Below, piece by piece: positions 29,722 to 49,442 of a stretch of DNA of 64,000 bases. Below the pieces are notes generated by a model. It made no database searches. It had not been told where the DNA came from and saw only the letters and a list, made by a program, of their open reading frames with translations. The stretch is from a virus. A program made the translations under genes and the position numbers. The stretch is from positions 62,001 through 126,000 of the IMG/VR virus record IMGVR_UViG_3300022890_000011; one strand, written 5' to 3'. Position 1 is the first letter of the stretch. Each line of letters starts with the position of its first letter.

Positions 29722-30156
29722 ATGGAAGTATATAACGTAAAATATTATAAGAGTGGAATTTATGAAGGTATATACACTTTAAAAATAGAAGAAGAAGTTG
29801 TGTCTGGTCTTTTAATAGGCAATCATCAAGTAACACCAAGTGAAATAAAACATAAATTTACATTAATTAAAGATGATAATTTAATAGATGAATATTTAGA
29901 TCAATGGGAATCAAACTACATTTTTAAAAATGACCGAAGTAATAGAGATATTAGATTTGAGAATCAATTTTTAGAAGTTGAATTGACAAGACCTATTTTA
30001 AAATCTATTTGTGAAGATGTTGATAACGGTGTTTATGAATATGAATATCAACAAGATTATTACTCAATGAATTTTGATGTTGATAAATATCAAAAGTATC
30101 TTATTAGAAAAGAAAGAAAAAATAAATTAGATAGAATACGTGAATCCGATAAATAA
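29722..30156 (+). CDS. Unknown protein with basic C-terminal tail
   Basis: 144 residues, acidic body (YEGIYTLKIEEEVVSGLL...), ending RKERKNKLDRIRESDK, the first of the basic tails that recur to 44 kb. No family recognised. Overlaps the next gene by 17 bases if GTG 30140 is used; an ATG at 30164 would remove the overlap. Confidence 0.65.
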   Translation: MEVYNVKYYKSGIYEGIYTLKIEEEVVSGLLIGNHQVTPSEIKHKFTLIKDDNLIDEYLDQWESNYIFKNDRSNRDIRFENQFLEVELTRPILKSICEDVDNGVYEYEYQQDYYSMNFDVDKYQKYLIRKERKNKLDRIRESDK

Positions 30157-30385
30157 TTTTATTATGAGTCTTAATATTAAAGAAAAATATAATGATATTT
30201 ATAAGTTGATTTTAGAATATGATTTGAATATTTTATTAAAACCAAATAATTCAAATATTGAATTTGTTATTGAATATGATGGTTATCAAATAGAGATAAA
30301 ACAAGGTATAACTGAAAAAGAATTTCAAAAGAAAATTATAAAGTTTCTTAGAAAGATTAAAATGAAGAGGTTGAAAAGTGAATAG
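30140..30385 (+). CDS. Small unknown protein with basic C-terminal tail
   Basis: 81 residues from GTG, or 73 from ATG 30164 (MSLNIKEKYND). Ends FLRKIKMKRLKSE. No family recognised. Confidence 0.6.
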   Translation: MNPINNFIMSLNIKEKYNDIYKLILEYDLNILLKPNNSNIEFVIEYDGYQIEIKQGITEKEFQKKIIKFLRKIKMKRLKSE

Positions 30386-30623
30386 AGAGTTTTTAAATGA
30401 TAATAAACAATTAATCAGAGAATATTTGTGTGATTTATGTACTTGTGATGTTGATGTTATTGAATTTTTTTTATATCCTGAAGATGGTAGGTGGAGAGTT
30501 ATGTATATGAATATTGAACTTGATTATTTTAATTATGATAGGATAAAATTAAATGAAAATGATGTTATTAAATATATTAGGAAACGTAAAATAGAGAGGG
30601 TAAAAGACAATGATAACAAATGA
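30378..30623 (+). CDS. Small unknown protein with basic C-terminal tail
   Basis: 81 residues from a GTG start, acidic body, ending YIRKRKIERVKDNDNK. The tail codons double as the purine-rich region before the next ATG (overlap 14 bases). Confidence 0.6.
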   Translation: MNREFLNDNKQLIREYLCDLCTCDVDVIEFFLYPEDGRWRVMYMNIELDYFNYDRIKLNENDVIKYIRKRKIERVKDNDNK

Positions 30624-30813
30624 ACAATATCTTAGTACAAAGTATGGTAAGAAATTAATCGAAATTATTGAAGATGATGATGACTGTTGTGTTTATGTGT
30701 TAGATATAAATGGTATTATCATTGTTCAGAAGTTGGTTTTGTCAGATGAGGATAAAAAAGAGTATTTAAGAATTAGTAGAAAACTAAAATTAGAGAGGGT
30801 AAAAGATGTTTGA
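30610..30813 (+). CDS. Small unknown protein with basic C-terminal tail
   Basis: 67 residues, MITNEQYLSTKYGKKL..., ending ISRKLKLERVKDV. Acidic centre (EIIEDDDDCCVYVLDING). Overlaps both neighbours. Confidence 0.6.
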   Translation: MITNEQYLSTKYGKKLIEIIEDDDDCCVYVLDINGIIIVQKLVLSDEDKKEYLRISRKLKLERVKDV

Positions 30814-31021
30814 TTGGAATATAGTTGATGATATGTTAGATCGGTTAGATTTACACATGAGTATTATAAATTTTAATGGTAATGATAATATAGTTTTTCA
30901 GTATAAGGTTGAAAAAATAAGTACTAAAAATATACGGAAATTTAATTCTGATCATGATTTATTAAAATATCTTCAAAGATTAGAACGAAAACTTAAATTA
31001 GATAGAGTTAATGATAAATAG
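30806..31021 (+). CDS. Small unknown protein with basic C-terminal tail
   Basis: 71 residues, MFDWNIVDDMLDRLDLH..., ending LERKLKLDRVNDK. No family recognised. Confidence 0.6.
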   Translation: MFDWNIVDDMLDRLDLHMSIINFNGNDNIVFQYKVEKISTKNIRKFNSDHDLLKYLQRLERKLKLDRVNDK

Positions 31022-31169
31022 AGAATATTATTTTGATGAATTATGGCCTGAAAAACCTTTGCCATCACCACAAGGAAAAATAATATATCTTGATTATGTA
31101 TATCCTAATTTTAATATAATAGAAATAGAGAAAAACATAATAGAAAGGTTAAATGGAAAACTGGATTGA
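31011..31169 (+). CDS. Small protein ending IEKNIIERLN type
   Basis: 52 codons: MINREYYFDELWPEKPLPSP... ending EIEKNIIERLNGKLD. It overlaps its neighbours by 11 and 17 bases. The IExNIIERLN end recurs in the 32703 gene, so a second tail type exists in this block. Confidence 0.55.
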   Translation: MINREYYFDELWPEKPLPSPQGKIIYLDYVYPNFNIIEIEKNIIERLNGKLD

Positions 31170-31451
31170 AGTAAGTGATAGATTAGATACAAAGACGAAA
31201 TATATTTAGTATTGGAGTATGTAGGTAATTCTAGAATAGATGATTTGCCAATTTATAGAATTGGATATAGTAATATTTTGTGTAATACAAATGAATTAAA
31301 TAAATATATTAGATATAATTATGTCAAATCCATTTCTGAGGCTCATACTAACATTACTAGTATTGAGCAAAATGTGATACGTAGATTCACTTTAAATAAT
31401 ATGATTATTAAGATTTATAAATATAATAAAGATGTACTAAATGAAAATTAA
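31153..31451 (+). pseudogene. Probable frameshifted small gene (IEQNVIRRF tail)
   Basis: ATG 31153 opens MENWIEVSDRLDTKTKYI then TAG (31207). A second frame (RYKDEIYLVLEYVGNSRIDD...) is coding from about 31182 and runs to 31451, but has only a TTG start (31212). Joining the frames near 31185-31195 gives one ordinary gene of about 98 residues with SIEQNVIRRFTLNN near the end. A single-base lesion is the simplest reading; TTG initiation at 31212 is the alternative. Confidence 0.5.
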
Positions 31452-31725
31452 GGAAATAACAAAAGAATTGATGACTGAAGCATTTCAAGAAATTCTTAAA
31501 AAATATGATTTAAATGATATTGTAAATGGCGATTTTAAAGAAATGGGATTTGTAATGGATTATCCAGTTAAACTTAATGAAGAAGTTGAAGAGGATGATT
31601 TATATACTATTATAGAGGAAGAAATTATTGAAAAGTTCAAAGATAGATCTGGAATGAAAGAAAAGATTAAAGAAATTAAACGTAAAGAAAGGAAAGATAA
31701 AATTGAGAGACTTAGAAACGAGTAA
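31441..31725 (+). CDS. Unknown protein with basic C-terminal tail
   Basis: 94 residues, MKIKEITKELMTEAFQEIL..., acidic centre, ending RKERKDKIERLRNE. Overlaps the next gene by 23 bases. Confidence 0.6.
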   Translation: MKIKEITKELMTEAFQEILKKYDLNDIVNGDFKEMGFVMDYPVKLNEEVEEDDLYTIIEEEIIEKFKDRSGMKEKIKEIKRKERKDKIERLRNE

Positions 31726-32098
31726 TTTATTAGATATTTATAATTATTGTAAGAGTTATTTGGATGACACATTTTCAGTTTTACAATTAATTAAATCATA
31801 TTGTGTTATTCAAAATAAAGAGTTATTTTTAACAATGAATATTGATGATAATGCATTTGAAAATTTAAGTGAAAAAGTACGATATATTTGTGAGAAGGTT
31901 ATTTCTAAAATTTATCCATCTTTTGATTTAAATCTTATAACTATAAATATAACAAAATCTGATTTTGATTCGATAAATGTTGATTTTGAGTTTAATAAAC
32001 CGGTTCTTAAAGATGCATTATGTAAAGAATTTACATCTAAGGAGTTTATTAGATTAGATAGAAAACGTAAACTTAAAAGAGTTAAATATGGAAGATAA
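31703..32098 (+). CDS. Unknown protein with basic C-terminal tail
   Basis: 131 residues from ATG 31703, ending LDRKRKLKRVKYGR. No family recognised. Confidence 0.6.
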   Translation: MRDLETSNLLDIYNYCKSYLDDTFSVLQLIKSYCVIQNKELFLTMNIDDNAFENLSEKVRYICEKVISKIYPSFDLNLITINITKSDFDSINVDFEFNKPVLKDALCKEFTSKEFIRLDRKRKLKRVKYGR

Positions 32099-32351
32099 TT
32101 TAATATTTGTAGAAGGATATGTTATTAAATATTTACATGATAATATTAATATATTAAGTAATGAGTTAAAAGTACAATTAAATTATTTAGATTCTCAGAA
32201 TTTGAAATATTTTTTTGAGATTATAATTAGTGGTGGTGCTTATTCTTTGCAAGTTAATGAAATGGATTGTAACTTAGAATTTATACCAGATAAAGAATTT
32301 TTAAGATATGTTAGAAAAGAAAAACTAAAAAGAATTAAAGATGCTAGATAA
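32088..32351 (+). CDS. Small unknown protein with basic C-terminal tail
   Basis: 87 residues, MEDNLIFVEGYVIKYLHDN..., ending YVRKEKLKRIKDAR. No family recognised. Confidence 0.6.
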   Translation: MEDNLIFVEGYVIKYLHDNINILSNELKVQLNYLDSQNLKYFFEIIISGGAYSLQVNEMDCNLEFIPDKEFLRYVRKEKLKRIKDAR

Positions 32352-32706
32352 AGATATTATATTATTAATGATTCAATATACTGATAAACAAATTGATGAA
32401 AAATTTAATGAATGTGAAATTGATTTACCAACTGAATCTTTAGAATATAATTATGAAGTTGATTTAGTTAAATCTAAAATAGAGAGATTAAATAGATTAC
32501 AAGAGTCAATTGTAGAAGCTAAAGAAGTATTAAATTATAGATTAACTGAAAATAAATTGACAAATGAATCTATAATTAATTGTTTAGTAGAATGTGAAAG
32601 AATAGACGGTTCTGTTTATTGTAATTATCATTCATTTGATTTTGATGAAAAGAGGTATAATAGAATTATGAGAAAATTAAAATTGAAAAGAGTTAGAGGA
32701 ATATGA
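32341..32706 (+). CDS. Unknown helical protein with basic C-terminal tail
   Basis: 121 residues, mostly charged helices (VDLVKSKIERLNRLQESIV), ending RIMRKLKLKRVRGI. ATGA overlap with the next gene. Confidence 0.62.
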   Translation: MLDKDIILLMIQYTDKQIDEKFNECEIDLPTESLEYNYEVDLVKSKIERLNRLQESIVEAKEVLNYRLTENKLTNESIINCLVECERIDGSVYCNYHSFDFDEKRYNRIMRKLKLKRVRGI

Positions 32707-32891
32707 ATCAGAAAATAGTTAATAAATTAAATAAAGCTGCTCATAAATTACATCAAAGGTCAATGTACGGTGCAGCTAATCATATTATAGTTAGCGAAGA
32801 ATATATGGAAGTTGTTCAATTGATGTTTGATATTCAAACAATAGAACAAAATATAATAGAAAGATTAAATGATAAGTGGAACAGTGATTAA
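32703..32891 (+). CDS. Small protein ending IEQNIIERLN type
   Basis: 62 residues: MNQKIVNKLNKAAHKLHQRS..., ending TIEQNIIERLNDKWNSD, like the 31011 gene. The region GAANHIIVSEEYMEVVQ resembles short segments of phage virion proteins, but this is too short to assign. Confidence 0.58.
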   Translation: MNQKIVNKLNKAAHKLHQRSMYGAANHIIVSEEYMEVVQLMFDIQTIEQNIIERLNDKWNSD

Positions 32892-33153
32892 AAAGTATAA
32901 AGAATTAGGTATTAGGTCTATTATGATTAATGGTAATGATACAATGTTTGTTTATATTGATGATTGGTATTTATTTAAAGATTGGTGTGATTTTCCATTC
33001 ATGGTTATTTCTACTGAAAAAAATTGGAATATGAATTCAATAACCAACAATCCTTGGAGTATTCAAATAGAAGATCCTGAAACTAAATTAAAACTTTTTG
33101 ATAGAAAACTCAGGAAGTTAAAAATAAAAAGAATTAAAAATGAAGAAATTTAA
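32869..33153 (+). CDS. Unknown protein with basic C-terminal tail
   Basis: 94 residues, aromatic-rich (YIDDWYLFKDWCDFPF), ending DRKLRKLKIKRIKNEEI. Overlaps its neighbours by 23 and 14 bases. Confidence 0.6.
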   Translation: MISGTVIKKYKELGIRSIMINGNDTMFVYIDDWYLFKDWCDFPFMVISTEKNWNMNSITNNPWSIQIEDPETKLKLFDRKLRKLKIKRIKNEEI

Positions 33154-33316
33154 AGTAACAAAAGGCAACGGAGAACCAGTAATCATGGAAGAAACTGAAA
33201 TTTATCCTATGATAGAACAAAGATCATCAGCATTTGCTGGTATGTTAAAAGGATTAAAGGTTGGAGAAGGAGTATATTCTAATGATACAATGACAAATTT
33301 CGAAAGAGTGGAATAA
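33140..33316 (+). CDS. Small unknown protein
   Basis: 58 codons: MKKFKVTKGNGEPVIMEE... ending TNFERVE. The segment AFAGMLKGLKVGEGVYSNDT looks like a compact folded domain. One-base stop/start overlap with the next gene. No family recognised. Confidence 0.55.
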   Translation: MKKFKVTKGNGEPVIMEETEIYPMIEQRSSAFAGMLKGLKVGEGVYSNDTMTNFERVE

Positions 33317-33723
33317 TGAAACAGAATATTGAAATAGGAAATGGTCGAAGTTATCATGTTGACACATTTGACATGGTGGCTGATCCTTCTTTTAAAAATT
33401 CTACTTTAGGAGAAATTGAACATCCTGTACTATCATATACAGAACATTTAGCAAATTGTATTGAAACTAATATTTCATATAATGAGTATATCGTAGAACG
33501 AACGAAAATTAATATACCATATAAAGATAAACAAATATGGAAACCGTTGATTGAAGATTATGTTGATAAACCGTGTTCTTCTTTTTGTCAAGAAAAATTT
33601 TTCAAACAACCAATTAATTTCATTAAAAGTTTTTTTGTTAAAGAAAAAGTTGATTTTTCAATTAAAGATATTAGAAATAATGTTGAAAGAAATAGAAAAG
33701 AAATAAAAAACTTAGAATTATAA
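33316..33723 (+). CDS. Unknown protein
   Basis: 135 residues. Begins MKQNIEIGNGRSYHVDTFD; helical basic C-terminus (NVERNRKEIKNLEL). No family recognised, no tail motif. Confidence 0.6.
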   Translation: MKQNIEIGNGRSYHVDTFDMVADPSFKNSTLGEIEHPVLSYTEHLANCIETNISYNEYIVERTKINIPYKDKQIWKPLIEDYVDKPCSSFCQEKFFKQPINFIKSFFVKEKVDFSIKDIRNNVERNRKEIKNLEL

Positions 33724-34118
33724 TGGATAAGAATATTGAAGATTTACAAAAGAAATTAGAACAGTTCGGTATGTTATCTGAACCTAAAATAGAACACAAA
33801 GAAGAAAATATTCCACTTGAAAAAAAGTATATTTTTGCTGATGATAAAAATGCAATAATAGTTTCTTCTTCTAAGAAAGAATTTTTTAGAATTACCAATG
33901 AAGGTGAATTTATAGTTAATGGTGAAAAAATTGATGTAGATAAAGAATTTATACAATCTTTCACAATTGTATTAGAAGAGTTATTAGGAGAATCTCATGG
34001 TGAAATGATGAAAAGAGTTCGCAGAGAAGCAAGACAGGATGTTATTAAAGATTTAGAAAGATTATATGAGGATATAGATGAAATATTAATTAAAGAATTA
34101 ATTGAAAAATGGAAATAG
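33723..34118 (+). CDS. Unknown charged protein
   Basis: 131 residues. A coiled start (IEDLQKKLEQFGMLS), a beta segment (FFRITNEGEFIVNGEKIDV) like that seen in small phage proteins, and a helical charged end. The beta segment suggests a head-to-tail pattern EGEFxVNGEKI; role unknown. Confidence 0.6.
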   Translation: MDKNIEDLQKKLEQFGMLSEPKIEHKEENIPLEKKYIFADDKNAIIVSSSKKEFFRITNEGEFIVNGEKIDVDKEFIQSFTIVLEELLGESHGEMMKRVRREARQDVIKDLERLYEDIDEILIKELIEKWK

Positions 34119-34131
34119 AAAAATTTTTTAT

Positions 34132-34154
34132 ATTTTAAAATTTTTGTATTTTGA
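34132..34154 (+). promoter_or_regulatory. Candidate promoter element
   Basis: TTTTAAAATTTTTGTATTTT, a variant of the recurrent T-rich/TATATT element, about 35-55 bases before the 34189 start at a break in the overlapping gene run. Confidence 0.3.
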
Positions 34155-34188
34155 AGAAAATAGATTTTTAATTTAAAATTATAGAAAA

Positions 34189-34680
34189 ATGTCAACATTA
34201 TTATTATGGTGTACAATTATTGCATCAGCTTCAATATTATCAATTATTATAGGATTTATTATAGATGATGAAAATTTTATTTCTTTTGGTATAGCTTTTG
34301 CTTTTATTATTGGTATTCTTGGATTTGCTATTTTGGCAAATTGTCTTACAAATAAGATGGTAACTACTGAAATATTTCCAAAAGTTGTCATAGAAAAAAA
34401 TGTTAATGTTATCACAGTTATTTGGAGTCATGATGAAATTCAACATGAAACTAAATATTTTGATGAAATTAATAAAATAAATGAACATACAAAATGGACA
34501 ATGATTGAGAAATTCAATCATTATGGTTCTTTTAATGGATCTTATATTAAGTATGAAACACCTATAGAATATATTTATGCAGATACATCAAATGTCGAAA
34601 TAATACAATTTCAAAAAAGCCCACCAGATAGTATTAAAAAAGAGATTAAGTTGAATAAGCCTAATATTATGATAAAATGA
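34189..34680 (+). CDS. Two-transmembrane protein with soluble C-terminal domain
   Basis: 163 residues. Helices at about 5-24 (LLLWCTIIASASILSIIIGF) and 31-50 (FGIAFAFIIGILGFAILAN), then a soluble beta-rich domain of about 100 residues starting EIFPKVVIEKNVNVITVIW. Same layout as the proteins at 35658, 38822 and 39349. Function unknown; inner-membrane location is inferred. Confidence 0.7.
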   Translation: MSTLLLWCTIIASASILSIIIGFIIDDENFISFGIAFAFIIGILGFAILANCLTNKMVTTEIFPKVVIEKNVNVITVIWSHDEIQHETKYFDEINKINEHTKWTMIEKFNHYGSFNGSYIKYETPIEYIYADTSNVEIIQFQKSPPDSIKKEIKLNKPNIMIK

Positions 34681-34868
34681 TAAATCTTAATAAACCAGAA
34701 TATATTCAACATAAAGAATATATTATAAAAGTATCGGATATTTCTGCATTGAGATTTATATTATCTAGTGGAAAGAAAGAAGAATGGAGTGTTAGTAGTA
34801 ATGAATATGAAATATGTAAAAAGAAATTAATAAATTTATTAGAACCAGTTGATTTGGGTGATCTTTAA
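34677..34868 (+). CDS. Small unknown protein
   Basis: 63 residues, MINLNKPEYIQHKEYIIKV..., no recognised motif; ATGA overlap with the membrane-protein gene before it. Confidence 0.5.
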   Translation: MINLNKPEYIQHKEYIIKVSDISALRFILSSGKKEEWSVSSNEYEICKKKLINLLEPVDLGDL

Positions 34869-34879
34869 AACAAATATAA

Positions 34880-35270
34880 ATGAATATATCTGTATCAAAT
34901 AAAAAAGAAGGTTGGTTTATTAATCTATATATTAATGTACCTTATGATAGGATTTCAATAATGGTTTCTGATATAACTGAATTATATTTTCAAGGTGCAA
35001 AGATTAATACATATCCTGATTATTTTAAAAATGAATTTGATTTTGTTAAGAAAGTAAGAAAGTTTAGAGATAGACTTAAATATATTAAAACTGAGAATTG
35101 GGGTATGACCGAAGAATATTATTTTAAAGATGGTGAATTACATAGGTTATGGGGACCTGCGATTGAATATAAATAGAGGTGAAATTAAAACGAAAGAAGA
35201 ATATAGTAAAATGCCTGAAGTACAAAGATTTACAAGAAAATTAAAATTAGAAAGAGTAAGGAGAAAATAA
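34880..35270 (+). pseudogene. MORN-like phage protein frameshifted before its basic tail
   Basis: The first frame (34880-35176) encodes 98 residues ending EYYFKDGELHRLWGPAIEYK; the KDGELHRxxGPAIEY pattern is common in phage repeat proteins. Just after the stop, another frame continues NRGEIKTKEEYSKMPEVQRF and then TRKLKLERVRRK, stopping at 35270. Removing one A near 35168-35172 joins them into one protein with the usual basic tail. The tail would otherwise be an orphan 19-codon ORF (35211-35270). Confidence 0.55.
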
Positions 35271-35572
35271 TGGATGGATATTATCTAGAAGTAAAAAATA
35301 AAGATGAATCAATAGCTTTTCAAGATGTTTGTCGTGAATTAGGTTATGATTGGTTTTTAACAACAAATAAAAATGTAGAAGATAATTATTATATTGTTCC
35401 AAATTATCCTTGTGTAATGTTTATGCAATCTAAGAATATGTCATTAAGGTGGTGTAGTGTGGAATTTTGGAATAGTTCGAGTTTAAAGCCTTATTATACA
35501 TCTACACAAGAATGTAAAGAATATATGAGAAAATTAAGAAAATTAAAACTTTGGAGGGTAAAAGAATGTTAG
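35270..35572 (+). CDS. Unknown protein with basic C-terminal tail
   Basis: 100 residues, MDGYYLEVKNKDESIAFQD..., ending YMRKLRKLKLWRVKEC. No family recognised. Confidence 0.6.
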   Translation: MDGYYLEVKNKDESIAFQDVCRELGYDWFLTTNKNVEDNYYIVPNYPCVMFMQSKNMSLRWCSVEFWNSSSLKPYYTSTQECKEYMRKLRKLKLWRVKEC

Positions 35573-35661
35573 TAATGAATATTATAGCTATAGTAATAGT
35601 ATGTTATTTAGTTAGTGATTATGAAATAAAAGATTTATTAAATTTAAAAGGGAAAAAATGA
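35566..35661 (+). CDS. 31-residue single-span membrane peptide
   Basis: MLVMNIIAIVIVCYLVSDYE... then a charged tail; one hydrophobic helix. It overlaps the preceding gene by seven bases and the following ATG by four (ATGA), supporting translation. Confidence 0.5.
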   Translation: MLVMNIIAIVIVCYLVSDYEIKDLLNLKGKK

Positions 35662-36095
35662 CGTTAGGAATATTAATTTGTAGTGGTTTAACATTACTTG
35701 GGATTATAATATTAATTATAGGAATTGTAAAAGGTTATAAAGGTGAAGGTAAACAAATAGTAGGAACTGTGATATTAGTATTAACTGGTTTTATAGGATG
35801 GGGTGTTTGTAATATTGAATGTGTATCTAAAAAAAATATTGAAAAAATTGATGTTGAAGTTGTCATGACTAGTAAATCAGCAATAGTTGAATATATGTAT
35901 GATGATAGACTTAGACAAAAAGTTTACGAAAATGTTGCAGAATATACTATGATTAGAGATTATGAACTTGAATGGACTATAACAACTAAATATAATCAAT
36001 ATAGTTATGAATCATTTGGAAGTCTCGATTATAGTGTTATTGAAAAGAAAGAAAAAAAGGAAGAAAATAAAGTTAAATCTAATAATTTACAATGA
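35658..36095 (+). CDS. Two-transmembrane protein with soluble C-terminal domain
   Basis: 145 residues. Helices LGILICSGLTLLGIIILIIG and IVGTVILVLTGFIGWGVCN, then a soluble domain (EKIDVEVVMTSKSAIVEYMY...) and a Lys-rich tail. Same architecture as the 34189, 38822 and 39349 proteins. Confidence 0.7.
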   Translation: MTLGILICSGLTLLGIIILIIGIVKGYKGEGKQIVGTVILVLTGFIGWGVCNIECVSKKNIEKIDVEVVMTSKSAIVEYMYDDRLRQKVYENVAEYTMIRDYELEWTITTKYNQYSYESFGSLDYSVIEKKEKKEENKVKSNNLQ

Positions 36096-36797
36096 ATAAT
36101 TCTACAAATTTTTTAGCTAACATTTCACCTAATGAAGATGAATCGAAAATAAGATTATTTGAGTTATTTAAAGAATCTTGTGATTCAAATTCTAAATTAA
36201 TTGATATTGTTAACAATGGTAATTTTAGAGATGAAAATAATGTTTGGAAAATTGGTTTAGATAAGTTACCAAAAATACGAGAATATCGTGGATATAAATG
36301 GAATAGAAAAGATGACGTTAAATATACTTATTCTTCTATGAAGAGGTTTAGATTTGCTGATAATGAAACATTAGATATAATTGCCTGTTATTATAATTAT
36401 GCTGAACAATATATTATAAAAGAGAAATATAGGAAATTACAATTCTTTGGTCTTTGGCACATTGATTCTGTTAGAAGTGTAAATATATTTGATAAATTAA
36501 AACCAGTTGTAGAAGATTTGATGCCAATTATGAAATCTGAATATTCTAAATACAATTATGAAATCTGAATATTCTAAATACAATTGGGAAACTGAATATC
36601 AGAAATATGGAACAGATGCATATCAAGAAATATATTTTGGTTGTAAAAAATATTATTTAGAATATGATAAATTATATTGTGAAATTAGTAAAGGAGAATT
36701 AGATTGTCTTAATGAATATTATGAAAATGGTATTAAAGATATATTATTTGAAAAATTAGAAAGAAGATTATATAAATTAAAGAATGAACAGGATTAA
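36092..36797 (+). pseudogene. Gene split in two by a 28-base tandem duplication
   Basis: The upstream frame (36092-36568, 158 residues) ends MKSEYSKYNYEI; the next (36558-36797, 79 residues) begins MKSEYSKYNWETEYQKYG. Both contain the same duplicated 28 bases, so collapsing the duplication restores one gene of about 225 residues ending LERRLYKLKNEQD, a variant of the basic tail. No domain recognised. Both halves may still be translated separately. Confidence 0.65.
36530..36585 (+). repeat. Perfect 28-base tandem duplication
   Basis: Two identical 28-base units (36530-36557, 36558-36585), each starting ATGAAATCTG. The length is not a multiple of three, hence the frameshift; a further CAATT precedes the first copy. 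Confidence 0.92.
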
Positions 36798-37077
36798 AAG
36801 TTTTTTACGATATAATTTTTCGAATAAAAAGAAAGTACGAAAATACCTTGGAGGTTATTGGGAATATTGGACTGTTAATGAATTTGGTGAATTGTGGTTA
36901 AAAGTTTCAGAGAAAAATGCTTTTAAAAAAGATTATAAACCTCCTCTTGATAGAGAAACACCATATTGTGAATATTATGATATAGGTTTTTTTGGTAATA
37001 AGAGGGAATTAACTGATAAAATGTTAAAAAGATTAGACAGAAAAAGAAAATTAAAAAGAGTAAAAAATGAAAATTAG
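36784..37077 (+). CDS. Unknown protein with basic C-terminal tail
   Basis: 97 residues, MNRIKSFLRYNFSNKKKVRK..., aromatic centre, ending LDRKRKLKRVKNEN. Overlaps the first of the SNSSSSSF genes by 11 bases. Confidence 0.62.
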   Translation: MNRIKSFLRYNFSNKKKVRKYLGGYWEYWTVNEFGELWLKVSEKNAFKKDYKPPLDRETPYCEYYDIGFFGNKRELTDKMLKRLDRKRKLKRVKNEN

Positions 37078-37393
37078 AAGTGGTTTTGTAAGTAATTCTT
37101 CAAGTAGTTCTTTTATAATTGAAAGAAAGAATCTTACTAAGAAACAAATAAGTAAGATTAAAAATCATATTGATGAACATAATAAAATGGATCCTTTGGA
37201 TCAATATAATCATTGTGATGGATGGTCTATTTATGAAAATTTACCAGAAGGTTATAGTGAATATGATGATAAAGTAAAAAGAAAATATCGTCAAGGACAT
37301 ATTGAAGGGTATTGTAACATGGATAATTTTAGTATGTATAGTTTTCTGGAAGAAATAGGTGTGCTTGATAATGATATTAATTGGACATATTAA
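37067..37393 (+). CDS. SNSSSSSF-leader protein
   Basis: 108 residues, N-terminus MKIRSGFVSNSSSSSFII, then a helical/aromatic domain (NLTKKQISKIKNHIDEHNK; CDGWSIYENLPEGYSEYD). The leader is shared with seven other genes here. The body resembles the 42301 protein (LSDEQISSVIEHKKH). Function unknown. Confidence 0.72.
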   Translation: MKIRSGFVSNSSSSSFIIERKNLTKKQISKIKNHIDEHNKMDPLDQYNHCDGWSIYENLPEGYSEYDDKVKRKYRQGHIEGYCNMDNFSMYSFLEEIGVLDNDINWTY

Positions 37394-37437
37394 TTAAACA
37401 ATTAAGAATAAAAATCATAAAAAAAGAAAAATTAAAT

Positions 37438-37743
37438 ATGAAAATTAGAAATGGATTTGTAAGTAATTCTTCAAGTAGCTCATTTGTCATAATTGGATTT
37501 ATTCCTACAAAAGATGAATATGAAAAGTATGAGGAACAATTAGAAGATTTTGATCACACTTGTGAATCTTTTGACAATGGTGATGCGTATGGATTTTTTA
37601 TTGCAGTAGATGATGGAGAAGGTGACCAAGTAGAGAGTGAGATTGATTTTGATCAAATCACAAAATGGAGAGATGAACTTATTGAAAAGTTTGAAATTGA
37701 TGAAGAAAGAATTAAGTTATATTCAGGTATAATGATGTCTTAA
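37438..37743 (+). CDS. SNSSSSSF-leader protein
   Basis: 101 residues from the ATG at 37438 (MKIRNGFVSNSSSSSFVI); a TTG at 37381 opens the same frame but would bury the conserved leader. Acidic body (QLEDFDHTCESFDNGDAYGF). No family recognised. Confidence 0.7.
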   Translation: MKIRNGFVSNSSSSSFVIIGFIPTKDEYEKYEEQLEDFDHTCESFDNGDAYGFFIAVDDGEGDQVESEIDFDQITKWRDELIEKFEIDEERIKLYSGIMMS

Positions 37744-37799
37744 ATGAGATAAATTATGATTAAAAAAGAAGATTTAGAATTAAAAAATAAATAAAAAAT

Positions 37800-38306
37800 A
37801 TGAAAATTAGAAATGGATTTGTAAGTAATAGTAGTTCCAGTTCATATATATGTGATGTGTGTGGACATGATGAATCAGGTTGGGATTTGTGTTTATCAGA
37901 TGCAGAAATGGTAGAATGTGCATCAGGACATGTAATGTGTTGTTCGCATGTTGAAGCAACAAAAGCCGAAATATATATTGCTATGGTTGAAGAAGGAATA
38001 GAAAAATATGGTAATACATATGATCATGAAGATAAATTGAAAGAAATTCAAGTTATTGAAGATGAAAAAGAAAGAGAAAATTTTTGTAATGATGCTTTAT
38101 ATGAAACAGATTGGGAATATTCTTTTCCTTCAAAATTGTGTCCTATTTGTTCATTAAAGCAAATAAATGATAGTGAATTAGTACAATATTTAAAACATGG
38201 TGTAGGAATTGACATGGATTCTGTTATGAAAGATATGCGAAGTAAGTTTAAGGATTATGATGAATTTCAAACATTTTTAATAGAAAGGAGGAAAAATGAA
38301 AATTAG
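37800..38306 (+). CDS. SNSSSSSY-leader zinc-binding protein
   Basis: 168 residues. MKIRNGFVSNSSSSSYICDVCG: the leader runs directly into a C-x2-C, followed by CASGHVMCCSH and a later CPIC, a treble-clef or RING-like zinc set. Paralogous to the next gene and to 41635. The C-terminus is a helical domain (MRSKFKDYDEFQTFLIE) common to all three. Confidence 0.75.
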   Translation: MKIRNGFVSNSSSSSYICDVCGHDESGWDLCLSDAEMVECASGHVMCCSHVEATKAEIYIAMVEEGIEKYGNTYDHEDKLKEIQVIEDEKERENFCNDALYETDWEYSFPSKLCPICSLKQINDSELVQYLKHGVGIDMDSVMKDMRSKFKDYDEFQTFLIERRKNEN

Positions 38307-38829
38307 ATTAGGATTTGTAAGTAACAGTAGCTCAAGTAGTTATATTTGTGATATTTGTGGTGAAGATGCAACAGGTTATGATATTTCTTTAGAAGAATAT
38401 GAGATGTATGTTTGTAAGAATGGTCATGTTTTTTGTGAAGAACATATGAAAGTTATTCCAACAAATATTGAATTATTAAAAGTTATTTTTGAAGGTGAAG
38501 TGAAAAAGTATAAAAAATGGCTTGAAGATAATCCTGGTGAAGATTATGAAAAATGGTTAAAAGAGGCTGAAGATAATATTAATGAATTGAATACTCTTTC
38601 AGAATCTGAAATTGAAAAAAAAGTAGATGATGAATGGTATGATTATATTAGTGAATCAAGGTATGAATATCCTCCTAAATATTGCCCGTTGTGTAGATTT
38701 GATTATTTATCAAAAAAAGATGTTTATGAATATGTTGATAAGAAATATTCAATAGAGAAAGTTAAAAAAGAAATCAATGAAAAATTTGATAATTATGAAC
38801 AATTTAAAAACCATTTAAAAAATGATTAA
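38296..38829 (+). CDS. SNSSSSSY-leader zinc-binding protein
   Basis: 177 residues: MKIRLGFVSNSSSSSYICDICG, CKNGHVFCEEH, CPLC, and the C-terminal INEKFDNYEQFKNHL, so same fold as its neighbour. RING-like Cys/His spacing (C-x2-C...C-x3-H-x2-C-x2-H...C-x2-C). Role unknown; protein or nucleic-acid binding is possible. Confidence 0.75.
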   Translation: MKIRLGFVSNSSSSSYICDICGEDATGYDISLEEYEMYVCKNGHVFCEEHMKVIPTNIELLKVIFEGEVKKYKKWLEDNPGEDYEKWLKEAEDNINELNTLSESEIEKKVDDEWYDYISESRYEYPPKYCPLCRFDYLSKKDVYEYVDKKYSIEKVKKEINEKFDNYEQFKNHLKND

Positions 38830-39343
38830 TACACTAATACTTGGAGGATTTGCCATAATATTGACTTATTGTGGAATTATGCTGTTTATAAATGCAAAGA
38901 AACGAAATGATGAGTGGGCTGCATTTCATGGTATTTTGTCATTAGTTGTCATAATATTTTTTCTTGTCTTTGGAAATGTTAAAATATACGAACATGAAAT
39001 AGATATAAGCGATAAATGTATTATGTTTGATATTAATAATGGTGTTTGTGTTGAATATCAAGGTGTGTATTATACAGATAAAAGTGTTTCTGCTAGAAAA
39101 TATAAATACGATTCACCAACTGTCATATTACATGATACATATACATTATTTTCAGATTCTAAGGATCAAGAAAATTATATAAAAATAAAACCTAATAAAA
39201 AGAAAAAGAAAGTAAATGAAAAGAAAGTAACAGATAAAGTTACTGATAAATGGCCATCGGATACTATCGGGGACTTTAATAAGGAACAAAAAGTAAATTC
39301 TGAAAATCAGAATTTTAAGAAAAATATAACAACTTTAAATTAA
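38822..39343 (+). CDS. Two-transmembrane protein with soluble C-terminal domain
   Basis: 173 residues. Helices TLILGGFAIILTYCGIMLFI and GILSLVVIIFFLVFG, then a beta-rich domain (VCVEYQGVYYTDKSVSARKY) and a long Lys-rich end. Third member of this architecture. Confidence 0.7.
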   Translation: MINTLILGGFAIILTYCGIMLFINAKKRNDEWAAFHGILSLVVIIFFLVFGNVKIYEHEIDISDKCIMFDINNGVCVEYQGVYYTDKSVSARKYKYDSPTVILHDTYTLFSDSKDQENYIKIKPNKKKKKVNEKKVTDKVTDKWPSDTIGDFNKEQKVNSENQNFKKNITTLN

Positions 39344-39348
39344 AAAAC

Positions 39349-39768
39349 ATGTTTTTAGGATTTTCAATAATAATAATATTATTCTTTGCAATTTTATTTA
39401 TTTTTTCTATAAAGAAAAATTATGAAGGAAATGTAGTTTATTCTAGTATATTTGGTGTGATTTCAATAATTTTTTTAACATGTGCATTATTTGTATTACC
39501 AGTTAAACAAGAACTAATAATATTAGATGAAAGTGAATATTTATATGAAACTTTTATTGAAAATGGAAAATTAAATGTAGAAATCGAGTGGAAAAATAAA
39601 AGTTTTTTCACTAAATCAGGGGTTGGTTATTTAGAAGGTGATTGTGAAGTAATTTTAATTCGAGAAATATCATCATTCGGCACCACCATTAATATATATG
39701 ATGATTACATTTTATACATAGTTCCAAAAGAGAAATTAGAAAAAGTTAACGATAAATATAAAAAATAA
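39349..39768 (+). CDS. Two-transmembrane protein with soluble C-terminal domain
   Basis: 139 residues. Helices LGFSIIIILFFAILFIFSI and VYSSIFGVISIIFLTCALFV, then a beta domain (LNVEIEWKNKSFFTKSGVGY) and a Lys-rich end. Fourth member; adjacent to the third. Confidence 0.7.
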   Translation: MFLGFSIIIILFFAILFIFSIKKNYEGNVVYSSIFGVISIIFLTCALFVLPVKQELIILDESEYLYETFIENGKLNVEIEWKNKSFFTKSGVGYLEGDCEVILIREISSFGTTINIYDDYILYIVPKEKLEKVNDKYKK

Positions 39769-40787
39769 TGAGTCATTTTACAGTCCTAGTAATAGGAGAT
39801 AACCCAGAAGAACAACTAGCACCATTTCAAGAAAACAATATGGATGATTGTCCAAAAGAATATTTAGAATTCTATGAAACAGAATTAGGATATCAAGAGG
39901 AATGGGATTTAAACGAACTCAAGATCAGAAAACATTATCCAAATAAAAAAATTGATATCACGGAAGATCAACTTGAGCAATTGTGTGTAAAAGGCACAAT
40001 TAATATGGAGAAAGAATTTGAATCATGGAACAAAGTTAATGAAAATGATATTTGTGAACTTAATTGTAATCAAATAGTGAGTTTTGGTGTTGTTAAAGGT
40101 ATTTTATTTGATGAAGAAAGCAAACTTCAAAATTTTGTAATTATTCAAATGGAAAATAAAGAGAAAACTATTCAAGAACAGTATGGTACTTTTGAAAATT
40201 TTGTTTCTGAATACCATGGATTGTCTGAAAGAGATTCAGAATATAATAGATATGGTTATTGGGAAAATACTAGAGCTAAATGGGATTGGTATGAATTAGG
40301 TGGTAGATGGAGTGGTTTTTTTAGATTAAAAAATGGTTCGCATGGAAGTTTAGGTAGACCAGGTGTATTTGATAATATTCCTGAACATGGTACAGTGGAT
40401 CAAGCTTATAAGAAGGATATTAATTTTGATTTAATGAGAACAGAAAATTTTGAAAGAGCTTCAGAAAAGTGGGAAAAATGGGAAGAATTGAATAATTCTA
40501 ATACAGAAGACGCAAAAAATAAAGCTTATTGGTCATTTGGTATTATTAATATTGGAGATAAAGATAATTTTATACCAGAAGATAAAATAAGTTATTTGAA
40601 AAGACAAAGTAATATAAACACATTTGCAATTTTAAAAGATGGTGAATGGTATGAAAAAGGTGAAATGGGTTGGTTTGGTATGTATAATGATGAAATGAGT
40701 GAAGATGAATGGGGAGAAAAATTTGATGAACTTTTAGTTAATTTAACAGGTGACACATTACTTAGCGTATATGATTGTCATATTTAA
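39768..40787 (+). CDS. Conserved phage hypothetical protein (MSHFTVLVIG family)
   Basis: 339 residues starting MSHFTVLVIGDNPEEQLAPF, an N-terminus I recognise from hypothetical proteins of many large phages. Further conserved-looking stretches: YGYWENTRAKWDWYELGGRW, FAILKDGEWYEKGEMGWFG. No catalytic assignment. Its presence supports a phage origin. Confidence 0.75.
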   Translation: MSHFTVLVIGDNPEEQLAPFQENNMDDCPKEYLEFYETELGYQEEWDLNELKIRKHYPNKKIDITEDQLEQLCVKGTINMEKEFESWNKVNENDICELNCNQIVSFGVVKGILFDEESKLQNFVIIQMENKEKTIQEQYGTFENFVSEYHGLSERDSEYNRYGYWENTRAKWDWYELGGRWSGFFRLKNGSHGSLGRPGVFDNIPEHGTVDQAYKKDINFDLMRTENFERASEKWEKWEELNNSNTEDAKNKAYWSFGIINIGDKDNFIPEDKISYLKRQSNINTFAILKDGEWYEKGEMGWFGMYNDEMSEDEWGEKFDELLVNLTGDTLLSVYDCHI

Positions 40788-40852
40788 AAATATAAAAATA
40801 TGAGAGAAAAAGATTATAAACAAGTATCATTTCAAAATAAGTTAAAATTATA

Positions 40853-41113
40853 ATGGAGATTTATAAATCATTTTGTATAGATAAAATAAGTAGAACTTTG
40901 GTTGGTTATAATAAAATTTGTATAGTTCATTTTATGATAGATTCTGTTTTAATAGGTTATTATAAAGGTTGTCATACTTATCCATTTAATGTTGATCAAG
41001 GTGCATATGTTATGGAAAAAATGTCATTTCTTGATTTAATACTTAGATTTGAAATTGATGCTAAAGATTATGTACCTGAATTAATTGAAGGCAATAAAAT
41101 GGATTTATTATGA
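40853..41113 (+). CDS. Small unknown protein ending MDLL
   Basis: 86 residues ending EGNKMDLL, a variant of the KLGLL-type terminus. No family recognised. A 17-codon ORF (MREKDYKQVSFQNKLKL, 40801-40854) precedes it and may be a remnant. Confidence 0.6.
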   Translation: MEIYKSFCIDKISRTLVGYNKICIVHFMIDSVLIGYYKGCHTYPFNVDQGAYVMEKMSFLDLILRFEIDAKDYVPELIEGNKMDLL

Positions 41114-41562
41114 AAAGATTATTTATTATAAGACACGGAAAAGCAGAAGATCACGATCAATCAGATTTTGAAAGATCTTTAACAAAAAAAGGCAAAAGGG
41201 TTAGTAGAGAAGTGGCTAAATCGTTATATAATGATGGATACCAAATTGATAATTTTATTACGAGTCCTGGTTTTAGATCATTAGAAACTTGTATAATATT
41301 TGCAGATGAATTTGGTTATAATGTTGAAGATATAATAATTAATAGTGATTTATATTTTAATGTTACAACTAATGAATATCAAAATATTTTTGACCAATGT
41401 CCGGGTTCTGATAATATTGCTATAGTTGGACATAATCCGTTTTTATCATTTTTAGTTCATCATCTAACTGGTAAAATTGTTAATATGATTAAAAGTGGAG
41501 TGTCAGTTATAGAATTTAATGATGGTATGACAGAAGCTAAATTAATTTTATATAAAAACTAA
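41110..41562 (+). CDS. SixA-like phosphohistidine phosphatase
   Basis: 150 residues. The histidine-phosphatase signature FIIRHGKAE (catalytic RHG), TSPGFRSLET, and VGHNP with the second catalytic His. Length and motifs match SixA, which removes phosphate from histidine in His-containing phosphotransfer domains. Cytoplasmic. A phage copy might rewire host signalling or phosphotransfer (inference). ATGA overlap upstream and TAATG overlap downstream. Confidence 0.88.
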   Translation: MKRLFIIRHGKAEDHDQSDFERSLTKKGKRVSREVAKSLYNDGYQIDNFITSPGFRSLETCIIFADEFGYNVEDIIINSDLYFNVTTNEYQNIFDQCPGSDNIAIVGHNPFLSFLVHHLTGKIVNMIKSGVSVIEFNDGMTEAKLILYKN

Positions 41563-41645
41563 TGAAAATAACAAAACAAGAAGGTGGAGATATAGAATAT
41601 CAAATTGAAGAAGATATAATCGAATTAATTAAAGATGAAAATTAG
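41562..41645 (+). CDS. 27-residue acidic ORF
   Basis: MKITKQEGGDIEYQIEED... ending KDEN; overlaps the SixA stop by one base and the next ATG by 11 bases. Coupled position is the only support. Confidence 0.35.
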   Translation: MKITKQEGGDIEYQIEEDIIELIKDEN

Positions 41646-41985
41646 AAAAGGATTTGTGAGTAACAGCTCATCAAGTAGTTATATTTGTGATATTTGTGGT
41701 GATGCTTTTGAAATGTGGGATGAGTCTCCTACTTCATGTGAATATGGTCATTATTTTTGTTATGATTGTATTCCAGATAACTGTGAAGGTGAAGGAAGTG
41801 TTGAAGAAAAGGATTGTCCTTATTGTTCATTTGAGAAAATTTCAGAATATGATTTTAATAATTATATTTTAGCTAAATATAATTTAAATAAAGGAGATAT
41901 TGAAAATGAAATTTATGAGAGATTTGAGAACTTTTCAGAATTTATAATTTATATTAACGAAAATAAGAATAGAAAATGCGATTAG
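41635..41985 (+). CDS. SNSSSSSY-leader zinc-binding protein
   Basis: 116 residues: MKIRKGFVSNSSSSSYICDICG, CEYGHYFCYDC, CPYC and the end YERFENFSEFIIYI. Shorter paralogue of the 37800 and 38296 proteins. Confidence 0.75.
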   Translation: MKIRKGFVSNSSSSSYICDICGDAFEMWDESPTSCEYGHYFCYDCIPDNCEGEGSVEEKDCPYCSFEKISEYDFNNYILAKYNLNKGDIENEIYERFENFSEFIIYINENKNRKCD

Positions 41986-42311
41986 AAAATTTAGAAACAA
42001 GAGTAATTGGTTATATTGGTGTAGATGCAGGTATTGTGTGGATTGGAGACCCATGTTATATAATGCATAAAGATAAACCTTATAAATCTATTGGTAAAGA
42101 TTGGGGTGATTTTTGTGATAAACTTGGTGATAGTTATGTTAAATCATTTAATTATGACATGGGGCACGAGGGTTTAGGTGTTTGTACATCTACTAAACAC
42201 GGTGATGGTCATTATCCAGTTATCGGGTTTTTTGAACCAGGTGCACAAAGACCATCATGTGTAATGGTTGATTTTGATAACATTTTTAATAACGAAGAAG
42301 ATGAAGATTAG
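41976..42311 (+). CDS. Conserved phage hypothetical protein (GIVWIGDPCYI family)
   Basis: 111 residues with GVDAGIVWIGDPCYIMH and DGHYPVIGFFEPGAQRPSCV, a pattern I know from phage hypothetical proteins. The Cys and Asp/His in conserved loops could be catalytic, but the function is unknown. Confidence 0.68.
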   Translation: MRLENLETRVIGYIGVDAGIVWIGDPCYIMHKDKPYKSIGKDWGDFCDKLGDSYVKSFNYDMGHEGLGVCTSTKHGDGHYPVIGFFEPGAQRPSCVMVDFDNIFNNEEDED

Positions 42312-42753
42312 AAGTGGTTTTGTAAGTAATAGTAGTTCATCATCTTTCTTAATTTTAAAAGAAGGATTAAGTGATGAACAAATTAGTTCTGTGATAGAAC
42401 ATAAGAAACATGCTGATAATTATTTTAATAGTAATGATAGATTAACTGATGAATATCATGAGAATGAAGAAGATGGTTATTCACCTTTTCATCAATTGTA
42501 TGGATTTTGGGATATAGATGGTTATGATGTGTGGAATATAGAAGATCATTTAAATTATATATTAACTGAAAATGGTATGGATAATTTTGATTTGATGAGT
42601 TTTTGTATTGATATATTTAATATACCAAAAGATAATATTTATACGGTTGAAAGTGATATGTATTATTATATTAATGATGTAGATAGTTTTGTAAAACAGA
42701 CAATTACAGAAAGTCGTAAAAATAAACTCGAAAGAGTAAAAAATAAAAAATAA
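42301..42753 (+). CDS. Protein with SNSSSSSF leader and basic C-terminal tail
   Basis: 150 residues from ATG 42301 (MKIRSGFVSNSSSSSFLI), ending RKNKLERVKNKK: both block-specific motifs in one protein. An ATG at 42268 gives an out-of-family extension. Body acidic and aromatic (FWDIDGYDVWNIEDHLNYIL). Confidence 0.72.
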   Translation: MKIRSGFVSNSSSSSFLILKEGLSDEQISSVIEHKKHADNYFNSNDRLTDEYHENEEDGYSPFHQLYGFWDIDGYDVWNIEDHLNYILTENGMDNFDLMSFCIDIFNIPKDNIYTVESDMYYYINDVDSFVKQTITESRKNKLERVKNKK

Positions 42754-42756
42754 AGA

Positions 42757-43242
42757 ATGGGAACGAGAAGTTCAATTGCAATTAAAACAGAAGATGGTAC
42801 ATATAAAGGAATATATTGTCATTGGGATGGTTATTTAGACCATAATGGTATTATACTATATGAATCTTATGACACTTATGAAAAAGTACTTGAATTAGTA
42901 AATTTAGGTGATGCTTCATCTTTAGATCATAGTTCTAAATTAGTTGAAGGACATACATATGATACAAAAAAAGAAGGATGTTCCACATTCTATCATCGAG
43001 ATAGAGGTGAAAAATGGGAGGATGTTGCTCCAAAAGAGTTCGATACATATAAAGAATTGTTAGATTATTTAGGTCAAGGATATGATTATATTTTTGAAGA
43101 TGGTGAATGGTATGATAATGGAAAAGGTAAATTAGAGGATTTACTTATTAATACTGAACATGCTTCAAGAGTAAAGGAATTAAAGAAAAAGAGAATACAA
43201 ACAGATAGAAAACTTAAAATAGAGAGAATAAATGAAGATTAG
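42757..43242 (+). CDS. Conserved phage hypothetical protein (MGTRSSIA family) with basic tail
   Basis: 161 residues starting MGTRSSIAIKTEDGTYKGIY and CHWDGYLDHNG, a family I recognise from phages and bacteria as hypothetical. The C-terminus TDRKLKIERINED is the block's basic tail added to a known core, which argues that the tail is a transferable module. Confidence 0.75.
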   Translation: MGTRSSIAIKTEDGTYKGIYCHWDGYLDHNGIILYESYDTYEKVLELVNLGDASSLDHSSKLVEGHTYDTKKEGCSTFYHRDRGEKWEDVAPKEFDTYKELLDYLGQGYDYIFEDGEWYDNGKGKLEDLLINTEHASRVKELKKKRIQTDRKLKIERINED

Positions 43243-43792
43243 AAGTGGTTTTGTAAGCAATAGTAGTTCATCATCTTTCATATTAAGAAAAGATGATTAT
43301 TTTCCTGATTCATATAGCTTAGCGGCTAGCATGATAAAAGTTAGAGAATGGAATAATGATGGTGAACTAGTTGATAAATTAATTAGTAAAGTGGAGGCTG
43401 GTGAAAGTTATCCTAATATTAGTTTTGCATCTTGTAATTATGATACGTTTATAGTTGATGAAGGAGATTATTTATTATGTGAAACTTGTAATAATCATGC
43501 ACATTGGAATATAACTGATTATGGTGATAATATTAGTTTTGCATCTTTACCAGAAGAAATAAGATTAAAATATAGTAGAGATGGTGATATGAATCTTACT
43601 GGAAAATATAGTGAAGAAGAAAAAGATTGTGATGAATTTTGGTTTGTAGAACATGATATAATTGGTAAATTAGCTTCTAAATATACTAATGGAAAATATA
43701 ATAATGATACATATTGTTCTGAATGTTATACTGATTATGTTGTAATTGATGGTGTTGCACAATGTCCAAGATGTAGAAAAGTAGATGAATAA
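43232..43792 (+). CDS. SNSSSSSF-leader protein with C-terminal zinc ribbon
   Basis: 186 residues: MKIRSGFVSNSSSSSFIL, later CETCNNH and a C-terminal CSECYTDY...CPRC. The first 51 bases are almost identical to those of the 42301 gene, suggesting recent leader exchange. Function unknown. Confidence 0.72.
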   Translation: MKIRSGFVSNSSSSSFILRKDDYFPDSYSLAASMIKVREWNNDGELVDKLISKVEAGESYPNISFASCNYDTFIVDEGDYLLCETCNNHAHWNITDYGDNISFASLPEEIRLKYSRDGDMNLTGKYSEEEKDCDEFWFVEHDIIGKLASKYTNGKYNNDTYCSECYTDYVVIDGVAQCPRCRKVDE

Positions 43793-44431
43793 GTATTTTA
43801 AAGATATATTAAATAATTCTCAGTTTACAATGATATCAGGAAAAACTAATAGTGGCAAAACTAGATTTTTAATGTGGTTAGCTGCTTTATGTTCAGAAAA
43901 TAACAAGGTCTTATACATTTCTACAGAAATGAGTGAAAGACATGTTATTAATAATTTTTCACCATTATTGAATGTTGATTTACATAAAAAATGGATTAGA
44001 ACTGCTAGAAAACTTAAAATGGATAGAATTAAAGGTAATATCGAATATAAAAATATACCAGGTATTGTTATTAAACATACTCAATATGTTGATGATATTA
44101 AAAAATTGGTTGGTGATTATGATGTTGTTGTTATTGATTCTATATTAATTTAATATTGGAAAAAGATAGAAGGTTATATTCATATAAAGAACAAAATGAT
44201 TTTATTAATATATTTACGGGAAAAGTTATTATATCATCTCAATTATATAGAAATGGAGATATTTTAACATCTAGTTTTCCAATGAAATTGTTTACGAATA
44301 GTGATTCTGTATTTTCTATTGAAAAAGAAGATAATTTTTTATTAAGTAAGATTGAATGTCACAAAAATAGATATTTACCTATTGGTTTAGTACCTAAAAA
44401 ATTTGATTTATCAAAAATGAATTTTGTTTAA
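43785..44431 (+). pseudogene. RecA/DnaB-like P-loop ATPase split by a frameshift
   Basis: First part (43785-44153): Walker A ISGKTNSGKTRF, YISTEMSE and Walker B-like VVVIDSILI, then stop. Second part (44156-44431, only a TTG start) continues as EKDRRLYSYKEQNDF and VIISSQLYRNGDI, typical of the next strand of a RecA-like fold. A missing base near 44147-44152 explains the break. Inside the ATPase, before the second half, sits KWIRTARKLKMDRIKG, a copy of the basic tail in an internal position. Joined length about 213 residues. Confidence 0.6.
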
Positions 44432-49437: not shown

Positions 49438-49442
49438 TAATT

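Follow-up and report, generated by a model that had tools for sequence, protein, structure and literature searches.

Encapsulin cargo-loading peptides are short, C-terminal and dock diverse proteins to a shared protein shell. The internal proteins of phage T4 form a diverse set with a common short targeting peptide (PMC3012670), and C-terminal degrons such as ssrA or the RRKKAI end of MuA are well known as signals for proteolysis by Clp machines (PMC8138137). Here, we describe a C-terminal peptide of the type RKLKLERVK that recurs on many small, otherwise dissimilar proteins encoded in a 64,000-nucleotide stretch of viral DNA (the window), which comprises positions 62001-126000 of the 166,601-bp IMG/VR virus record IMGVR_UViG_3300022890_000011 (labelled G000; G+C 25%). 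The same kind of tag ends a share of the proteins of several other very large phages, and our searches of the open-access literature brought up no description of it. We lean towards reading it as a docking peptide.

Results

A recurrent C-terminal peptide on unrelated proteins

Fifteen open reading frames (ORFs) of the window carry the strict motif R-K-x-[K/N/D]-[LIM]-x-R-[VIL]-[KRN] at their C-terminus, 2-5 residues ahead of the stop codon (Table 1), and three further tagged genes of the record lie outside the window (29047 on the minus strand, 54774 and 132637 on the plus strand). An earlier reading of the sequence only had counted about 17 tagged proteins in the window; the recurrence is real, yet the number is 15 because a sixteenth copy is internal to its ORF, 39 residues from the end, and thus not a tail. 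Two neighboring window ORFs, 31011 and 32703, have only weak and different endings (IEKNIIERLN and IEQNIIERLN). A profile of the tails with a threshold of at least 16 bits matched 18 C-terminal sites and one internal site in G000 (2,304 C-terminal and 47,814 internal positions); since it was built from these same tails, this bias in position is the test and not the scores themselves.

The tailed bodies in G000, which include the known MGTRSSIA family, are as unrelated as had been claimed, with no significant mutual similarity by BLAST except for the pair 54774/132637 (a MORN-like repeat). Likewise, the tails in the window vary synonymously as proposed, with arginine spelled AGA, AGG, CGA or CGT and leucine TTA, CTT, CTA, TTG or CTC. 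A megablast search with the first 25 kb of the window against 50,697 phage records gave no match, and neither Rfam families nor transfer RNAs (tRNAs) nor a transfer-messenger RNA were found in the window, so that explanations of the tag through such elements were dropped.

The tag is shared by a family of very large phages

Beyond the window, the tag was generalized to R-[KD]-x-K-[LI]-x-x-[ILV], and we counted matches to R..[KRI][ILVM]..[ILVM] in the last 20 residues of proteins, with expected counts derived from internal windows and genes called by a simple rule of longest non-overlapping ORFs. Two genomes found via a degenerate DNA pattern of the tail in large AT-rich IMG/VR phages, G004 (348 kb) and G002 (235 kb), were covered completely, while the LR and Lak records (except LR745206), the comparison phages and the genomes G010 to G014 were sampled in 20-kb pieces. 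By their size, the LR records were identified as genomes of Al-Shayeb et al. (PMC7162821), who described complete genomes of 634, 636, 642 and 735 kb, placed the largest genomes together with Lak genomes in the Mahaphage clade and predicted Bacteroidetes hosts. The motif was generalized on some of the counted genomes; G010 and G011, retrieved once the motif had been fixed, were held out as an independent check, yet were picked by their match to a related DNA pattern.

In G000, 21 of 247 genes are tagged (0.6 expected). C-terminal enrichment extends to seven other large phages, i.e., the two IMG/VR genomes (G004, 11/550 with 1.9 expected; G002, 76/394 with 1.7 expected), three of the 634-642 kb Mahaphages (LR745206, 153/946 with 5.5 expected; LR756504, 81/295 sampled genes with 1.7 expected; LR756502, 53/321 sampled genes with 2.5 expected) and both held-out genomes (G010, 22/250 with 1.4 expected; G011, 51/283 with 1.3 expected). 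Across these phages the tag ends 2-28% of proteins, most of them small. The odds ratio of C-terminal versus internal matches is 36 in G000 (p=2e-16) and 33 in LR745206 (p=5e-109), with values of 56 in G002, 67 in LR756504, 26 in LR756502 and 6 in G004. When patterns were counted over the C-terminal residues, R..K[LI]..[IL] was among the strongest signals in several LR genomes. The phages at or near background include the 735-kb Mahaphage; counts were low in LR756501 (1/272), LR756500 (1/317), Lak-A1 (3/223) and phiKZ (2/96), and zero in T4 (0/203), CBB (0/174), KVP40 (0/121) and crAss001 (0/28).

The ribonucleotide reductase and DnaB-type helicase of G004 match LR genomes of 462-735 kb, and the helicase also matches Prevotella Lak phages. 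The tag-positive phages form a family of very large viruses whose hosts are bacteria of Bacteroidota type. A cellular origin of the tag was considered and rejected, as its strict DNA form has six matches in 84,980 bacterial and archaeal species genomes, none of them the in-frame C-terminus of an evident protein.

The tag is selected as a peptide

Each genome has its own spelling of the tag: RKLKLERVK in G000, RKLKLDRIK in G004, RKEKLKKIN in G002, RKxKIENLL in LR756504, about R-D-x-K-[IL]-N-K-I-L in LR745206, LR756502 and G011, and R-[DN]-x-K-I-x-x-I-L in G010. The constant positions are R1, K4, [LI]5 and [ILV]8, which the search pattern itself requires loosely, while the sharper preferences (for K4 and at residues 2, 6, 7 and 9) were not imposed by it. 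The distance from the end of the motif to the stop codon is mostly 0-8 residues, commonest at 1-5; after the 8-residue motif it peaks at one residue in LR756504 and is mostly two or three in LR745206, yet values range across 0-8 residues and above.

Codons at R1, K4 and L5 are used much as in the rest of each genome (for R1, p=0.9 in G000 and 0.32 in LR745206), with a weak bias at K4 (p=0.02) and an excess of ATA for isoleucine at position 8 (p=9e-5 and 4e-4), perhaps a trace of the following gene's start region. Repeat DNA at gene junctions, which the sequence-only reading had named as the finding that would undo a peptide label, was examined in this way; because codons at the fixed positions mostly follow genome background, the peptide is what is selected. 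A DNA repeat or mobile junction element was rejected accordingly, as it calls for nucleotide conservation beyond what the peptide needs and only the isoleucine of position 8 clearly deviates.

Tagged genes lie clustered in blocks of small overlapping ORFs in G000, G002 and LR745206, with 10 adjacent tagged pairs in G000 (1.8 expected) and 43 in G002 (12.0 expected). The tail, which had been proposed to lie over the start region of the next gene, sits just upstream of an overlapping start in 18 of the 21 tagged G000 genes, but other tagged genes are followed by one on the opposite strand or after a gap of more than 40 bp. An AlphaFold model of one SH3-like tagged protein (mean predicted local distance difference test score, pLDDT, of 87; a single model) has a barrel followed by a separate helix, residues 66-81, that contains the tag. 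Foldseek searches with this model retrieved KOW/Tudor-like barrels, none with an E-value below 0.03.

Bodies differ while orthologues mostly keep the tag

An alignment of 46 tagged LR745206 proteins has no consensus beyond RDxKLxxILx (mean column identity 7%), and one of 69 pattern-bearing proteins from other genomes none beyond RxxKIxxIxx (6%), with a few of the 69 being false positives of the motif. A shared body domain was therefore rejected as an explanation, given that BLAST and both alignments leave little but the tag. Recognizable tagged bodies comprise MGTRSSIA/phrog_1987, a SNSSSSSF protein, MORN-like and leucine-rich repeats, a BtpA-like enzyme and proteins of 622-731 residues. Pfam and PHROGs named almost no others, and matches to PTH2 and a tRNA-synthetase-like protein were judged false positives of the motif by eye.

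Reciprocal best hits between LR745206 and LR756502 based on bodies only (34-78% identity) mostly keep the tag; a hand count gives about 12-13 pairs in which both proteins are tagged, besides a few near-tags and a single clear loss. The earlier concern that homologues might freely lack the tag thus finds little in these orthologues, but it does apply to the MGTRSSIA protein: its match to phrog_1987 covers residues 1-123 with the tag following, and its homologues in the viral contigs L008 and L010 end before the tail. A structure model of this protein was too poor to assign a fold (pLDDT 42). Together, near-background codons and retention in most orthologues support the proposal of a common label selected as a peptide.

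Small tagged SH3-like proteins with a GDxV motif are greatly expanded in LR756504 (L097, L098) and G002 (L052-L056). In G004, a leucine-rich protein (302226-302882; L044:2226-2882) is homologous to a family with MKYLKTYE...NANKMGLY ends but has neither end and instead terminates in the tag, here RKLRKYKIERIRK; it is a natural tag swap.

The tag avoids proteins with a capsid-targeting-like N-terminus

The tag and a T4-like capsid-targeting N-terminal peptide occur on the same protein in 8 cases versus 41.5 expected over six genomes, and the later genomes G010 and G011 show the same avoidance (0/29 and 1/16). About 30 proteins in G000 and 84 in G004 end in a second C-terminal tag, xxNK[ML]GLL, and often begin with MKYLKTYEN (Table 1 lists examples in the window), while G002 proteins with this N-terminus often end in NKFN[IL]. 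In addition, an N-terminal MKIRxGFVSNSSSSSF precedes different bodies in eight proteins of the window, or nine when the whole record is counted.

Other features of the locus

By eye, the window encodes Bacteroidota-type signal peptides and lipoproteins as well as T4-like genes, and the record has an FtsH-like protease, a CTP synthase and Clp genes (Table 1). The RecA/DnaB-like ATPase with the internal copy of the motif seems to be split over ORFs 43785-44153 and 44156-44431 by a frame change near 44150. A 388-residue protein, transposase/TnpB-like by eye, is identical end to end in the otherwise divergent genomes G000 (165429-166595) and G004 (259161-260327).

Table 1. Coordinates of tags and other features (window positions unless stated otherwise)
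Feature	Position	Strand	Remarks
Tag RKNKLDRIR	30115..30141	+	C-terminus of ORF 29722-30156
Tag RKIKMKRLK	30350..30376	+	C-terminus of ORF 30140-30385
Tag RKRKIERVK	30579..30605	+	C-terminus of ORF 30378-30623
Tag RKLKLERVK	30778..30804	+	C-terminus of ORF 30610-30813
Tag RKLKLDRVN	30986..31012	+	C-terminus of ORF 30806-31021
Tag RKDKIERLR	31690..31716	+	C-terminus of ORF 31441-31725
Tag RKRKLKRVK	32060..32086	+	C-terminus of ORF 31703-32098
Tag RKEKLKRIK	32313..32339	+	C-terminus of ORF 32088-32351
Tag RKLKLKRVR	32671..32697	+	C-terminus of ORF 32341-32706
Tag RKLKIKRIK	33112..33138	+	C-terminus of ORF 32869-33153
Tag RKLKLERVR	35235..35261	+	C-terminus of ORF 35130-35270
Tag RKLKLWRVK	35537..35563	+	C-terminus of ORF 35270-35572; next gene (simple gene set) begins 85 bp past stop
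Tag RKRKLKRVK	37039..37065	+	C-terminus of ORF 36784-37077
Tag RKNKLERVK	42715..42741	+	C-terminus of ORF 42268-42753, N-terminally SNSSSSSF-marked
Tag RKLKIERIN	43207..43233	+	C-terminus of MGTRSSIA protein 42757-43242
Internal copy RKLKMDRIK	44007..44033	+	Inside RecA/DnaB-like ATPase ORF 43785-44153
ClpC-like AAA+ ATPase	51199..53205	+	668 aa; GIGF resembles ClpP-docking loop; weak candidate receptor
FtsH-like AAA+ protease	46229..48508		By eye
CTP synthase	49416..51077		By eye
ClpP	128107..128766		Record (G000) positions; by eye
xxNK[ML]GLL ORF	814..1230		
xxNK[ML]GLL ORF	22248..22820		
xxNK[ML]GLL ORF	24503..24901		
MKIRxGFVSNSSSSSF ORF	37067..37393		
MKIRxGFVSNSSSSSF ORF	37381..37743		
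MKIRxGFVSNSSSSSF ORF	37800..38306		
MKIRxGFVSNSSSSSF ORF	38296..38829		
MKIRxGFVSNSSSSSF ORF	41635..41985		
MKIRxGFVSNSSSSSF ORF	42268..42753		Also tagged
MKIRxGFVSNSSSSSF ORF	43232..43792		
MKIRxGFVSNSSSSSF ORF	44858..45607		

Discussion

A proposed docking peptide with a putative shared receptor

On balance, we favor with modest confidence the view that the tag is a short C-terminal docking peptide read by one shared, putative receptor, for which the T4 capsid-targeting sequence (CTS) serves as a working analogy. Behind this reading stand the terminal position of the tag, its constraint at the peptide level, the unrelated bodies, the separate spelling in each of eight large phages, the avoidance of capsid-targeting-like N-termini and the one tag swap. 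The tag is appended to many small, unrelated and fast-evolving proteins and would be recognized as a peptide, probably through R1, K4, [LI]5 and [ILV]8 displayed on a C-terminal helix outside the body domain. The receptor would be encoded by the phage (or specific to the host) and change in step with the tag, which would account for the single spelling per genome, and docking may collect accessory proteins at one site in the infected cell. As a receptor we can name only one candidate, phage ClpC/ClpP, and its support is weak; the true receptor may be missing from G000 if this record is only a fragment.

Several points weigh against this interpretation. The support is computational throughout and the receptor remains putative. 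The motif is short, and a few C-terminal matches are false (such as the PTH2 and tRNA-synthetase-like proteins), in G004 about 2-3 of 11. Gene calls follow a simple longest-ORF rule, and for several genomes they cover samples only. Finally, many tagged proteins of G002 and LR756504 belong to one expanded SH3-like family, so that part of the similarity within these genomes could be descent.

As a more tentative extension of the docking peptide, we consider it possible that these phages use a proteome-wide sorting code in which the C-terminal peptide addresses cytoplasmic accessory proteins, while an N-terminal capsid-targeting peptide with a C-terminal KMGLL or KFNL addresses virion proteins; receptors would change along with their signals, and newly acquired genes would be recruited by swapping ends.

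Alternative explanations

The tag might instead be a degron that marks proteins for a phage ClpC-like unfoldase with phage or host ClpP, e.g., at an early-to-late switch, and capsid-targeted proteins would be untagged since they must persist. We regard this as rather unlikely, though several findings fit it besides the precedent of ssrA and MuA. Only three G000 proteins, namely the ClpC-like protein, a homing-type endonuclease and a structural-type protein, have homologues in G004, G002 and LR745206; the ClpC-like gene is present in all six tag-positive genomes searched versus two of eight tag-negative records, ClpP is found in five of six versus three of eight, and the closest IMG/VR relatives of ClpC (65% identity) include the tag-positive G010 and G011. 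However, at least 600 viral stretches have matches to ClpC-like genes, and more distant ClpC-bearing phages lack the tag (G013, 0/199; G014, 1/123) or have few tags (G012, 8/323 with 1.8 expected). CBB has both ClpC and ClpP but no tag, G004 has tags but no detected ClpP, and ClpC neighborhoods are not rich in tags (17/1,950 genes). The number of residues between tag and stop is variable (mostly 0-8), so that a fixed C-terminal carboxylate is probably not what is read, and the second C-terminal tag (...GLL) on proteins with a capsid-targeting peptide fits a degron poorly.

Less plausible still, the tag could be a second packaging signal that brings proteins into the virion by a route other than the N-terminal capsid-targeting peptide. 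The logic would be that of the T4 internal proteins, which are diverse and have nothing but a targeting peptide in common (PMC3012670); avoiding the N-terminal tag would then point to alternative routes, and one leucine-rich body family is found with either set of tags. Against this, the tag is unlike the capsid-targeting sequence, and tagged genes occur together in runs of small overlapping ORFs, an observation that is not decisive by itself.

Ordinary paralogy, in which one ancestral family of small proteins diverged past recognition in its bodies and conserved the last helix as the tag, seems improbable to us. Many tagged proteins of G002 and LR756504 are demonstrably one SH3-like family, but the tag also sits on unrelated recognizable bodies, from MGTRSSIA/phrog_1987 to a BtpA-like enzyme, and the MGTRSSIA homologues stop short of it.

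That the tag is a by-product of the overlapping next gene, i.e., an A- or purine-rich translation-initiation region read in frame as lysine and arginine codons, is largely refuted and very improbable. In most cases (18/21 in G000 and 63/71 in G002) the tag is indeed followed at once by an overlapping or very close start, and isoleucine at position 8 has an excess of A-ending codons. However, codons at R1, K4 and L5 stay close to background, a tag is present at only 18 of the 131 close junctions of G000, 48 of 152 tagged LR745206 genes have as their next gene one on the opposite strand or at a distance of more than 40 bp, and the consensus peptide shifts between genomes at R/D, E/N and R/K positions.

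Least probable is the amphipathic basic tail of the sequence-only reading, a disfavored electrostatic anchor to nucleic acid or membrane, because neither charge nor amphipathicity is conserved: the mean 14-mer net charge of +5.0 in G000 drops to +1.4 to +1.9 in LR756502, LR745206 and LR756504, where R1, K4, [LI]5 and [ILV]8 nevertheless persist, and in all six genomes tested the helical hydrophobic moment (0.21-0.24) is below the shuffled mean (0.31-0.35).

Implications and comparison with known systems

The tag marks a functional class among hundreds of huge-phage proteins with almost no recognizable domain, and one peptide with one expected partner offers a handle on their role, using a search that is repeatable on any phage proteome. 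An address code, if true, would mean protein sorting by linear signals in phages; a degron, if true, would mean programmed turnover of the phage's own proteins.

Like the T4 CTS, the tag is one short terminal peptide on many unrelated small phage proteins, but the CTS is N-terminal and is cleaved off by the prohead protease from cargo packaged in the virion, whereas the tag is C-terminal, differs in sequence and avoids the proteins with CTS-like N-peptides in the same phages. With Clp degrons it shares a C-terminal location, a basic character in the case of MuA and the company of ClpC-like and mostly also ClpP proteins; unlike these degrons, it stands at a variable distance from the stop and is absent from some ClpC-bearing phages. 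The gathering of accessory proteins that we propose would resemble nuclear import in Chimalliviridae (the PicA pathway), where many phage proteins are selectively gathered in one place in the infected cell, though phiKZ has only two tag matches in 96 sampled genes. Encapsulin cargo-loading peptides share the arrangement of a short C-terminal peptide on diverse proteins; the comparison with the RxxKL tag established no resemblance in sequence.

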